Positions 1 to 38,333 of a stretch of DNA of 64,000 bases are shown here, in pieces. The position numbers and the translations under genes were made by a program. Position 1 is the stretch's first letter, and each line of letters begins with the position of its first letter. The DNA comes from Posidoniimonas corsicana (GTDB taxonomy: Bacteria; Planctomycetota; Planctomycetia; Pirellulales; Lacipirellulaceae), in NCBI RefSeq assembly GCF_007859765.1, contig NZ_SIHJ01000001.1, positions 3,947,156-4,011,155 on the forward strand, in the 5' to 3' direction. Under the pieces are notes generated by a model. It did no database searches and was not told the DNA's origin. It saw nothing but the letters and a program-made list of their open reading frames with translations.

Positions 1-999
1 CGGATCTCCGGCCTGGTGCCTGCCGTCGATGACAGCTACGAGCACGAACCTGAGAAGCGCACCCGCCGGCAGCTGACCGAGGCGGTGCTGTCTCGCACCT
101 CACCGATCATCGGGTCGACCGTGCGGGACGCCAACTTCCGCGAGCGCTACAACGCGGCCATCGTCGCGGTGCACCGAAACGGCGAACGCCTGACTAACAA
201 GATTGGCAACATCCGCCTAGAGCCCGGCGACACCCTGCTCCTGCAGACCCGCAACGACTTTGTGGAGCAGCACCGCAACAACCGCGAGTTCTACCTGGTG
301 AGCCAGATCGACGGGTCGTCCGCCCGCCGGCACGACCGCGCCCTGATCGCCGTCGGGCTGTTCCTGCTGCTGATCGCGTGGCTGATGACCATTGCGTTGG
401 CCGGCGGGCCGACTCATCTGGGGCCCGTGCCGATCGGCAACCTGCTGGGCAACGACCCGAAGCCGGTCGCGGCGGTGACTGTCGTGCTGGCGATGATCCT
501 GTTCCGCTGCCTGTCGAGTTCGCAGGCACGGTCGGCAATCGACCTGCAGGTGCTCATGACGATCGCCGCCGCCATCGGCCTGGGGCAGGGGATCGAGAAG
601 AGCGGCGCGGCCGACTGGATCGCCCAGGGCCTGATCGGGCTGACCCAGGCGTCGCCGCTGCCGCCCGCCGCGGTGCCGTTCGCGCTGCTCGTGACCGTGT
701 ACCTTGTGTCGATGGTGTTCACCGAGGCGATTACCAACGTGGCGGTCGCGTCGATCATGATCCCGCTGTCCATCAGCGTCGCGGCCGCCGGCGGTCTGAA
801 CCCGCGGCCGTTCATCATGGCGGTCGCGATCGCCGCTTCGCTGAGTTTCGCCACCCCCATCGGCTACCAGACCAACCTGATGGTCATGGGCCCGGGCGGC
901 TACCACCCCCGCGACTACCTGCGGGTCGGCGGCCCGCTGACGCTGCTCTGCGCGGTGGTTGCGCTCACGCTAATCCCCCTGATCTGGCCGCTTACCTGA
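1..999 (+). CDS. SLC13-family permease with RCK_C domain, 3' part
   Basis: The reading frame is open from the first base of the window (the first in-frame codons read R-I-S-G-L-V-P), so this is the C-terminal part of a longer gene; a GTG at 16 is probably internal. The first 100 or so residues look like a TrkA C-terminal (RCK_C) ligand-binding domain: a run ending in 'LEPGDTLLLQ' is the usual final strand. They are followed by about six hydrophobic helices with the SLC13/DASS-like segment 'VFTEAITNVAVASIMIP' and a glycine-rich end 'TPIGYQTNLMVMGPGGY'. The family carries sodium-driven divalent anion uptake (sulfate, dicarboxylate) in the inner membrane, and this RCK_C-containing architecture is a common subgroup. 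The substrate cannot be read from this fragment. Confidence 0.85.
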   Translation, partial: RISGLVPAVDDSYEHEPEKRTRRQLTEAVLSRTSPIIGSTVRDANFRERYNAAIVAVHRNGERLTNKIGNIRLEPGDTLLLQTRNDFVEQHRNNREFYLVSQIDGSSARRHDRALIAVGLFLLLIAWLMTIALAGGPTHLGPVPIGNLLGNDPKPVAAVTVVLAMILFRCLSSSQARSAIDLQVLMTIAAAIGLGQGIEKSGAADWIAQGLIGLTQASPLPPAAVPFALLVTVYLVSMVFTEAITNVAVASIMIPLSISVAAAGGLNPRPFIMAVAIAASLSFATPIGYQTNLMVMGPGGYHPRDYLRVGGPLTLLCAVVALTLIPLIWPLT

Positions 1000-1155
1000 C
1001 CGGCCCGCCAGCGACAGCAGGCCCAAACCGGCCTTGCCGGCGAACGAAGCCAGGGCGATCATCGTACACGTAGGGGCCCAGGCCGCCGGAGGCTCCCGGT
1101 CCGCTGGGACCACCCAGTTTCACTCCTTAACACTTGCTTCTATCCAACCGATCCC

Positions 1156-2343
1156 ATGCACCTGTTCAGGAACCGTTCAACACTCACGTGTGTCCTCTGC
1201 ATGCTGGTCGGCGCCGTTGTGGGCGCCGCGCTGATGGCGGGCCTGGTTGACCTGCCGGCGATGGAATCCACGGCCTTCGCCCAGCCCGCCGCTCCCAATC
1301 AGGCTTCGCCCTACGCGGTGGCGCCCGCCGGCGCGCCGGCCGACCGGGCGCCGATCAACCTGACCCCTGAGGAGCTGGCCAACATCCGCGTGTACGAGGT
1401 CGCTCAGCGGGCCGTGGTGAACATCACCACCAGCACGCTCCAGGCGGACATGTTCTTCCGTGTGCAGCACGGGAAGGGCTCCGGATCGGGATCCATCATC
1501 GACCGCCAGGGCCACATCCTCACCAACAACCACGTCATCGAGGACGCCCAGGAGATCCAGGTCACGCTGTTCAACGGAGAGACCTATGACGCCCAGCTCA
1601 TCGGCGCCGACTCCGAGTACGACATGGCCGTGCTCAAGATCGACGCCCCCGCCGACCGGCTGTCGCCGATCGAGATGGGCGAGTCCGACACCCTCCGCGT
1701 AGGGCAGAAGGCGTACGCCGTGGGCAACCCGTTCGGGCTCGAGGGCACGCTCACCACCGGCATCATCTCGAGCCTCAACCGCTCGCTCCCCAGCCGCGTT
1801 CGCAACCGTACGATGACCTCCATGATCCAGACCGACGCCGCGATGAACCCCGGAAACTCCGGCGGCCCGCTGCTGGACACCAGCGCGCGGATGATCGGCA
1901 TGAACGTGGCAATCGCGTCGAAGATCGGGCAGAACTCCGGCGTCGGCTTCGCCATCCCGGTGAACCGGGTGCGGCGGTTCCTGCCCGATCTCATCGAGCA
2001 CGGCAAGGTCGTCCGTCCTGATCACGGCATCATCGAACTCGCGGTGACTCCCAATGGCCTGACCATCGCTCGCGTGAGGCCCGACGGCCCCGCCGACCGC
2101 GCCGGGCTGCGCGGCTTCCGCATCGTCCGCCGCGAGCGCCGGCAGGGCGCGGTGCGCTACATCGACACCCGCATCGACCGCTCGTACGCGGACAGCATCG
2201 TCTCGATCGACGGCACGCCGGTGCGGACCGCTCAGGAGTTTCTCTCCATCGTCGACCGCTGCTCGCCCGGCCAGGAGGTGACCGTGACGGTGATTCGCGA
2301 GGGCCGCCGCCAGGACGTCCAGCTGCGGCTGGGCGCAACCTAG
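1156..2343 (+). CDS. HtrA/DegP-like S1C serine protease with one PDZ domain
   Basis: 395 residues. A hydrophobic N-terminal segment (about 8-32) acts as a signal peptide or anchor, then a Pro/Ala-rich linker, a trypsin-like domain (about 80-275) and one PDZ domain (about 280-393). The catalytic triad is complete: His126 in 'TNNHVIED', Asp156 in 'EYDMAVLKID' and Ser235 in 'NPGNSGGPLL'. These proteins degrade or refold damaged proteins in the periplasm. The PDZ contains an insertion ('RIVRRERRQGAVRYIDTRIDRS') before 'DSIVSIDGTPVRTAQEF', longer than the usual loop. The gene stands alone, with 156 bases between it and the upstream permease. Confidence 0.9.
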   Translation: MHLFRNRSTLTCVLCMLVGAVVGAALMAGLVDLPAMESTAFAQPAAPNQASPYAVAPAGAPADRAPINLTPEELANIRVYEVAQRAVVNITTSTLQADMFFRVQHGKGSGSGSIIDRQGHILTNNHVIEDAQEIQVTLFNGETYDAQLIGADSEYDMAVLKIDAPADRLSPIEMGESDTLRVGQKAYAVGNPFGLEGTLTTGIISSLNRSLPSRVRNRTMTSMIQTDAAMNPGNSGGPLLDTSARMIGMNVAIASKIGQNSGVGFAIPVNRVRRFLPDLIEHGKVVRPDHGIIELAVTPNGLTIARVRPDGPADRAGLRGFRIVRRERRQGAVRYIDTRIDRSYADSIVSIDGTPVRTAQEFLSIVDRCSPGQEVTVTVIREGRRQDVQLRLGAT

Positions 2344-3422: not shown

Positions 3423-3815
3423 GGCCCGTCTCATTTCTACGGGGAGTATTGGCTGCGTCGTTCTGTCCAGAAACACGCGCGAAGGGGACAAAACTCGGGG
3501 ACTATTTCTCCCCTGATTTGCTGTAAGTGCTTTTCAATTAAACCGTTGCGTCAAGTGCGCCCGAACAAGCCGGTGGGGTTTTGTCCGTTTTCAAGCGCGC
3601 GAATCGGACAGTCCTCCCCTGCGAACGACTCCGATCTCAACGCACACCGTGGCGCCCGCTGCCCAACAGCCTGCGCGGTAATATGGGCGCACGAACACTC
3701 CCATTAGATCGCGCGGCGCGGCCGTTTTCCACGACGATCTGCGCGGCAACAGCGGAGAGCAGGCGGCGTGAACGGCCCGCTCGCCCGTGAGGTAACGCTC
3801 GGCCACAACCGGCTG
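3423..3815. other. 393-base intergenic region with hairpin module
   Basis: No gene supported. It contains the first copy of a two-hairpin repeat module (3460-3610). The rest shows no clear promoter or RNA. Confidence 0.5.
3460..3610. repeat. Hairpin repeat module, copy A
   Basis: First hairpin: GTTCTGTCC (3460-3468), 17-base loop, GGACAAAAC (3486-3494). Second, degenerate hairpin: GTTTTGTCC (3578-3586), then GGACA at 3606-3610. The first hairpin and about 20 bases after it match copy B (37892-38055) closely, and the two hairpins start 118 bases apart in both copies. Confidence 0.75.
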
Positions 3816-37723: not shown

Positions 37724-38333
37724 TTCGCCAGAGAATCTCCGTTAGCCCCCCCTTATGCATTTGGAGGCGTCGTCCTGTGCGTCGAAGGGCCAGTGCAAAG
37801 ACCGCTTCGGCGTGAAACACCGGCGCAACGTGAAGCACCGCGAACGATGCACGGTGCGCCGCTGACTTTTTCTCACGCTTCTGTCCGATTCGTTTTGTCC
37901 AAAAACACGCGCGAAGCGGACAAAACTCGGTGCCCATCTTTCCCTAGGCGAGTCATTTGACGCTGTAATAGCAGTGCCTTCCCCTCCTGTGAGGAACATA
38001 CCGCCGATCGTTTTGTCCGATCGGGGGCCGCCAAACGACCCAAAACGGACAAAACCCTAGCGGCCCACATCGCACCAACTAACCGCGCAGCAGCGAACGC
38101 CACGGGCCACGGCAACCTCTGCGCAGCTCGAGCCGAGTATATACCCTGAATACTGCCGCCATTAGAGCACGCATGGTGGCCGGTTTCTACAAGAATCCGC
38201 GGCGTTCGGCTTTCGCTCTGACAGCCCTCCTGCATGGGGGATATCGTCAACCAGTCCATGCTCTGGCAAGCGTGGCTAATCGGTGCGAAGGAGTCTGAGC
38301 GGTCACGTTGCAGATCGCGTCCGCAGCTAGCCG
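37724..38333. other. 610-base intergenic region with hairpin module
   Basis: Contains hairpin module copy B (37892-38055) and otherwise nothing I can name. A 306-codon minus-strand frame across it runs out of frame through the GYF gene and is not protein-like. Confidence 0.5.
37892..38055. repeat. Hairpin repeat module, copy B
   Basis: First hairpin: GTTTTGTCC (37892-37900), 17-base loop, GGACAAAAC (37918-37926), both arms perfect. Second hairpin: GTTTTGTCC (38010-38018) and GGACAAAAC (38047-38055), also perfect. The starts are 118 bases apart, as in copy A at 3460-3610; the first hairpin including its 17-base loop is nearly identical to copy A. Confidence 0.8.

Follow-up and report, generated by a model that had tools for sequence, protein, structure and literature searches.

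ERIC and BOX sequences are MITE-like intergenic repeats of 100-300 nt that are modular and contain inverted repeats, and the functions of REP, ERIC, and other bacterial repeats have been disputed for decades. Among the nearest published structures are the GTAG/CGTC repeats of Planctomycetes (PMC3733652) and the class 3 TnpA-Y1 structures, whose foot is CnGA (PMC6006769), and insertion sequences targeting REP elements are also known (Tobes and Pareja 2006, PMC1525189). In a literature search made mostly among papers outside subscription, none was recognized as describing the element reported here.

The stretch of DNA analyzed (the window; 64,000 nucleotides of Posidoniimonas corsicana, G000:C1:3947156-4011155, from a genome of 6.77 Mb in 13 contigs) carries two copies, A and B, of a two-hairpin module. 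Both are members of a dispersed intergenic family of composite elements of ~300 nt. An earlier note on this DNA had proposed a REP/MITE-like palindromic repeat, and pattern and model searches agree with this by finding many copies in the genome and in its relatives. Based on the sequences, our preferred reading, which we hold tentatively, is that of a domesticated REP/MITE-like DNA element serving as a multi-dyad binding site for a putative protein; it would have spread by copying in the past and would now be retained by selection.

Architecture and distribution of the element

In both window copies the 5' arms of the two hairpins are separated by the same step of 118 nt and the first loop is 17 nt long, as described in the earlier note; the two loops differ at two positions, and the loop of hairpin 2 in copy B is 28 nt. 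The perfect arms previously ascribed also to copy A were not recovered, since one mismatch is present in the first 5' arm of this copy and its hairpin 2 is degraded (Table 1). In the window, GTTTTGTCC occurs 6 times against 0.16 expected, a number reached in none of 100 shuffles. Arm b is complementary to arm c as well in both copies, a conserved motif lies in the interior of each, and a further motif follows both on the 3' side. A semi-conserved motif, AACCGCGCAGCAGC, was seen by eye between hairpin 2 and the 3' motif in copy B (38081-38094) and in loci L174, L169, and L177, and belongs to part of subfamily 1.

Table 1. Features of the two element copies in the window (positions counted from its first nucleotide).
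Feature	Position	Strand	Basis
Copy A, whole element (5' limit approximate)	3445..3747	+	R1 match 3441-3613, 152.7 bits; R2 match
Copy A arm a, GTTCTGTCC, one mismatch	3460..3468	+	sequence
Copy A arm b, GGACAAAAC	3486..3494	+	sequence
Copy A central dyad motif TAAG..N18..TTGC, 22-nt register	3524..3549	+	register 22 in 70/75 motif-bearing copies
Copy A arm c, GTTTTGTCC	3578..3586	+	sequence
Copy A arm d, degraded, GGACAG	3606..3611	+	sequence
Copy A 3' motif, ATTAGATCGCGC..GGCC..TTTTC	3696..3747	+	R2 match C1:3950851-3950902, 42.7 bits
Copy B, whole element (5' limit approximate)	37877..38204	+	R1 match 37873-38054, 121.4 bits; R2 match
Copy B outer 5' repeat, TTCTGTCCGATTC	37879..37891	+	sequence; conserved block immediately upstream of hairpin 1
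Copy B hairpin 1: arm a (GTTTTGTCC) 37892-37900, loop, arm b (GGACAAAAC) 37918-37926	37892..37926	+	sequence
Copy B hairpin 2: arm c 38010-38018, loop, arm d 38047-38055	38010..38055	+	sequence
Copy B 3' motif, ATTAGAGCACGC..GGTGGCCGGTTTC	38156..38204	+	R2 match C1:3985311-3985359, 39.3 bits

The hairpin pattern gave 107 matches per strand in the genome (some copies being counted twice through the outer repeat) and none for the backwards control. A covariance model, R1, built from 12 copies returned at least 140 rows, 83 of them full-length and above 60 bits, with some of the weaker rows representing the other strand of one palindromic copy. In an alignment of 84 rows the outer repeat GGGTTTTGTCCGATTC comes first and arm a follows it; a conserved loop of 17 nt separates arm a from arm b, ~83 nt of interior lie between arms b and c, and a second loop precedes arm d. 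The gap to the downstream gene is seldom below 160 nt, which suggested a longer unit, and the region downstream was therefore examined. There a motif, CATTRGACCGCGCNGGGTGGCCGGTTTCTAC, matches at 18/31 positions or better in 81 of the 84 copies, which had been chosen without using it; the motif is absent from L138-L140. As an exact pattern it occurs 79 times in the genome versus 0 in the control, and a model of it, R2, returned at least 149 rows. A coding origin of the 3' motif was ruled out by eye, as the motif contains in-frame stops (ATTTGA), carries indels, and has invariant third positions. Outside the span from the outer repeat to ~45 nt into the 3' motif, the 84 rows showed no strong conservation.

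The full unit, shown by alignment to be larger than the two isolated hairpins first taken as the entire element, thus comprises four arms (TTTTGTCC/GGACAAAA) in a fixed register with the 118-nt step, a central motif, and a 3' motif (ATTRGACCRCGC..GGTGGCC) at a variable distance from the arms. In total, 110 elements with arms b and c and the 3' motif were identified among the loci read in G000, and the spacing from b to c was 90-94 nt in all 47 copies counted (those with a 3' motif score below 16 being left out). Further copies were found with the covariance model in G000 and relatives, the spacing in the G000 copies counted does not vary freely, and the suggestion that spacing is retained under selection while the sequence diverges is upheld. 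Rows L033, L137, and L069 were left out of set A4 (60 reduced to 57), and one of the 20 stretches counted below for arm type, L285, gave no motif at 17/21.

Some 3' motifs lie without recognizable hairpins in the 330-380 nt upstream (L282, L287, and L296 in G000; L267, L256, and L260 in G013), those in L267 and L287 being located, by eye, ~18 and ~30 nt after the stop of an open frame, respectively. A separate palindrome, GGGAACACTAAT..ATTAGTGTTCCC, is found between hairpin 2 and the 3' motif of L128 and also in the orthologous element L207 of the congener G001; in G000 this pattern has a single site, G000:C2:670377-670440.

R1 matched at E <= 1e-5 in at least 6 of 59 genomes, the own genome counted (G000, G001, G003, G021, G026, and G028), the matches in G028 and G003 looking different by eye. 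At E <= 1e-4 and with stricter filters, R2 matched in at least 5 of 296 genomes of the order, again with the own genome counted, in genera g1 and g13; among the matches listed, the 3' motif is thus present in two genera of one family. The exact 3' pattern had no match in genome_contigs, a weak negative since copy L187 of the congener fits the pattern, and the 3' model had none in 35 of 80 named loci around tsaD. Copy A matched neither phages nor plasmids. The best named TsaD relative in genome_contigs, at 74%, is from Botrimarina colliarenosi, a member of the family Lacipirellulaceae (PMC7717034).

Turnover between species and constraint on individual copies

In the congener G001, R1 gave at least 84 rows at E <= 1e-5. 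We identified 23 locus pairs between the two species with at least one orthologous flank (two of them representing one place), at least seven of which share genes on both sides; where both flanks are shared, some of the elements align and others align poorly. At the sites corresponding to copies A and B (L320 and L322), neither R1 nor R2 matched at E <= 1. The copy A site is marked by a tsaD gene 85% identical in G001, where the gap to the next gene is ~100 nt versus 462 nt in G000; the copy B site is weaker, with a single flanking gene recognized. As both window copies are absent at these sites, no single copy is essential. The residual G001 DNA is too diverged for the borders of copy A to be placed, leaving a target-site duplication and a sharp border undefined. 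In a tree of 158 elements the species label changes 9 times versus 41 times when shuffled, and one of the five placeable pairs with at least one shared flanking ortholog groups closely. Between the two species the elements thus undergo gain, loss, and homogenization or renewed copying.

Such turnover supports in part the mobile element proposed in the earlier note; the similarity between copies does not. Among 80 mainly subfamily-1 copies (the 84 rows minus those with a motif score below 20/31) the highest identity is 77% over the aligned element, or 78% over 326 nt by BLAST. When the arm region alone was compared in the 110 G000 elements, the best pair, both members of subfamily 2, reached 88.5% over 157 nt and the best subfamily-1 pair 84%; subfamily 2 therefore looks younger. 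Species clustering together with the subfamily-2 pairs is compatible with continuing copying.

These data bear on the main rival of the preferred reading, a purely selfish non-autonomous repeat of the MITE or REPIN type mobilized in trans, which we consider possible, if rather doubtful. Species-specific clustering, presence and absence between congeners, and the narrow distribution all agree with it, and the closeness of the subfamily-2 pairs moved our support slightly in its direction. Hairpins 1 and 2 are in addition partly complementary over ~35 nt and might correspond to terminal inverted repeats, with the 3' motif lying outside both. On this explanation the conserved blocks would be kept as only block-intact copies get copied. 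The undefined target-site duplication and border lend it no support, and the blocks themselves speak against it. In the 15 closest pairs of the 80 copies, the spacers are identical at 1759 of 2566 positions (69%), versus 487 of 523 (93%) in hairpin 1, 161 of 165 (98%) in the 5' arm of hairpin 2, and 374 of 420 (89%) in the 3' motif. Since R1 selected copies by their hairpins, the 3' motif is the fairer witness of constraint. Blocks at 89-98% beside spacers at 69% indicate that the blocks are constrained copy by copy, and in copies as old as these, this implies a constraint that acts after insertion. At this age the constrained boxes can be read directly from the copies. Near-identical recent copies and an autonomous parent, as expected of a MITE, were not found; no parent was noticed in the loci read, which cover part of the genome.

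Subfamilies and covariation of the arms

A second arm type around GACTTTTGTCC/GGACAAAAGTC, with another conserved loop, was recognized by eye in 14 of 30 motif matches read and in 15 of 20 stretches. The arms of relatives differ again, with GGGGCAAAACTC/GAGTTTTGCCCC in G026 (L068) and TTTTGCCCCC/GGGGGCAA in G013 (L264). Across subfamilies and sister genomes the arms tend to switch together with their complementarity preserved, although arm types are mixed in some copies. Outside the 8-nt core, position 9 of arms b and c pairs in 151 of 158 elements versus 90 when shuffled, and c-d pairing was found in 95 of 122 versus 56; arm c can pair with either arm b or arm d. Elements with a 3' motif below 17/21 were left out of this set, and arm a was found in 114 of the 158 (subfamily-2 loops exceed the slice), which makes the a-b figures incomplete. 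The covariation may reflect few ancestral switches, and the independent switches may be few.

The central motif TAAG-N18-TTRC keeps a register of 22 in 70 of the 75 copies bearing it, and another central motif, CACGCTTGTATAGCAGTGTC, is also conserved as sequence. Neither showed covariation beyond shuffled among the 44 and 75 of 158 elements in which they could be anchored (a few being mis-anchored among the 44), and no pair was predicted for the 3' motif. Motifs conserved without covariation and a 3' motif with no predicted pair fit DNA dyads better than RNA.

The same evidence weighs on the small RNA of the earlier note, here a structured non-coding RNA family with transcription from the + strand, which we find improbable. 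RNAalifold predicted nested pairing, the arms covary, and G-T exceeds C-A by 66:5 in the b-c helix and by 22:2 in hairpin 2, all as such an RNA would have it. The bulk of the G-T excess, however, is one fixed consensus T-G pair, and in the d arm of hairpin 2, A-to-C and A-to-T changes outnumber A-to-G, so that the pairing is relaxed there rather than biased towards wobble (L141 was left out of these counts). Structured RNA was dropped as the first choice when a central stem drawn by eye showed no covariation above shuffled and the G-T excess of hairpin 2 was outweighed by transversions. The lack of covariation in the central motifs and of a predicted pair in the 3' motif argue in the same direction, as does the absence from the alignment of a conserved upstream block that might be a promoter. 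The upstream gene has the orientation of the element in 36 cases and the opposite one in 29, a ratio that lends the RNA no support. Rfam had no match in the window, and in four further loci tRNAs alone passed the threshold, so the element was matched by no Rfam family in the DNA searched.

Gene context, chromosomal spacing, and relation to known systems

No predicted gene is overlapped by 82 of the 84 rows, and L138 and L140 overlap a weak prediction. Both neighbors were called for 65 copies, with orientations taken from a home-made gene caller that missed at least one gene of the window; 24 copies lie between convergent, 10 between divergent, and 31 between tandem genes. The convergent and divergent counts agree with the preferred reading; the small number of divergent sites is also what a selfish repeat would be expected to show. 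Of the downstream genes, 43 are directed towards the element and 22 away from it, a bias that a pure landmark role does not predict.

Several copies are interrupted by insertion sequences. A DDE_Tnp_1 insertion sequence with a DUF772 domain splits hairpin 1 in arm b, at ACAAAA[C/G]T; L046 (~844-1960) and L048 (~857-1870) both show a duplication of 8 nt. A single end of it lies at the same octamer in L160, L175, L295, and L297, and in L298 one end occupies the octamer read on the other strand, in arm a. The element is thereby a marked target for an element-seeking insertion sequence. In L047 an IS607-like serine recombinase (Resolvase and HTH_17; 550-1938, minus strand) lies in the loop of hairpin 1. 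These genes, which stand between element halves, were considered as autonomous parents and rejected, the DDE insertion sequence because its inverted ends are its own and 8 nt of element sequence are duplicated, and the IS607-like gene because it is inserted within one hairpin-1 loop. In two loci of G013, L314 (~2200-2617) and L316 (~1333-1750), a truncated IS200-like repeat lies upstream of a 3' motif and ends at TTTTGC; that of L314 abuts hairpin 1 and is perhaps another element-targeting insertion sequence.

Y1 transposase genes were inspected as candidate mobilizers. The two of five G000 matches read (L309 and L310) are without an element, as are L312, L313, and L318 among the five of six read in G001. 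The other two, L319 and L311, lie near an element and are flanked by other palindromes, which may count against a selfish repeat mobilized by them. L319 (= L200) encodes a RAYT-like Y1 transposase (597-1637) with its ATG ~120 nt after the start of the element's 3' motif, the flanking palindromes being AAAGGTGTCAGACACCTTT / AAAAGGTTCCTGACACCTTTT. A REP is a single palindrome of 20-65 nt with a GTAG or CGTC/CnGA foot, whereas the present unit is ~300 nt long and combines four arms with a 3' motif. No conserved GTAG was found at the foot of the hairpins in the 84 rows, and CCGA precedes arm c, by eye, in a number of subfamily-2 copies alone.

The elements are spaced apart along the chromosome. 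On contigs C1-C5, 154 merged sites leave 12 gaps below 10 kb versus 29.4 in simulations (0 of 4000 as low), and the coefficient of variation of the gaps is 0.727 versus 0.934. In G001, R1 matches alone (65 sites, on contigs with at least four) leave no gap below 10 kb versus 6.7, with a coefficient of variation that is marginal (fraction as low, 0.046). Among unmerged sites, 4 pairs lie 1.6-7.5 kb apart where 22.3 are expected (0 of 3000 as low), almost all of the deficit falling at 2.5-7.5 kb (2 versus 18.9). Closer pairs are not clearly depleted (3 versus 6.1 at 0-1.6 kb, not significant; 2 versus 3.5 at 1.6-2.5 kb), pairs at 7.5-10 kb are near normal, and those at 20-30 kb are mildly low. 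Within 7.5 kb there are no pairs between subfamilies versus 9.0 expected, 2 versus 6.4 inside subfamily 1, and 1 versus 2.9 inside the rest (not significant). The exact-pattern list, to which no candidate cut-offs apply, gave 1 pair versus 6.75 within 7.5 kb (fraction as low, 0.008) and 6 versus 17.75 within 20 kb (0.0004). The nulls were uniform, slot, and exact-pattern, without a second-repeat control; the AACACTAAT palindrome tried for this purpose was unusable, with one palindrome in the genome. On contig C1, 36 copies are on the plus and 50 on the minus strand, with no clear switch that would indicate replication polarity.

If the repeat were selfish, the spacing would result from selection against deletions between close repeats, an account opposed by the avoidance between subfamilies with different arms. 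The spacing could also be read as target immunity of a Tn7- or Mu-like transposon whose end remnants the elements would be, with the arms as transposase-binding sites. The repeated arms in a fixed register and the depletion of pairs at 2.5-7.5 kb would suit such remnants, and arm GGACAAAA may resemble the transposase-binding repeats of Tn7. Per-copy conservation of the blocks is nevertheless unfit for dead ends, the avoidance spans subfamilies with different arms, and the deficit does not clearly extend to pairs below 2.5 kb. Reading of the loci turned up no autonomous element, and we regard transposon ends as very improbable.

In our preferred reading, of a domesticated binding site, a putative host DNA-binding protein would recognize the inverted repeats, namely the arm pairs, the central TAAG-N18-TTRC or CACGCT..AGTGT dyad, and the 3' motif, and the arms might be extruded as a cruciform. 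The spacing suggests that occupied sites could act as chromosome landmarks in domain or nucleoid organization, where two close copies might be harmful or redundant through a role at the level of the chromosome; elements too close together, or without boxes, would be eliminated by selection. A more specific proposal, which we judge unlikely, is that the elements form chromosome-wide composite landmarks, for the most part separated by more than 7.5 kb, and that a putative lineage-specific protein bound to them organizes nucleoid or supercoiling domains, the arms and the protein co-evolving such that the copies within a genome change together. Linked arm switching and mutual avoidance along the chromosome make the question "selfish or useful" testable in this element family.

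The element resembles REP, BIME, and REPIN sequences with TnpA-REP (RAYT), including the class 3 TnpA-Y1 of Planctomycetes, in being intergenic and palindromic with more than 100 copies, in having arms that differ between families, and in being a target of insertion sequences (PMC6006769). Unlike those repeats of 21-65 nt, it is a composite of ~300 nt with no conserved GTAG foot (PMC6006769). Its conserved long loop and separate 3' motif also distinguish it, its copies are spaced apart rather than clustered, and the Y1 genes near elements in the congener have other palindromes. With ERIC/IRU, BOX, RU, and similar MITE-like repeats it shares a length of 100-300 nt, an intergenic location, inverted repeats, and a modular build; it differs from this group in its block-wise constraint with drifting spacers, in arms that switch together, in its few close neighbors, and in that no target duplication has been defined for it. 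Like the insertion sequences that target REP elements (PMC1525189), an insertion sequence here hits a repeat at a single exact position, the octamer ACAAAA[C/G]T in hairpin 1; unlike those cases, the target is the present element and the insertion sequence a planctomycete member of the DDE_Tnp_1 family.
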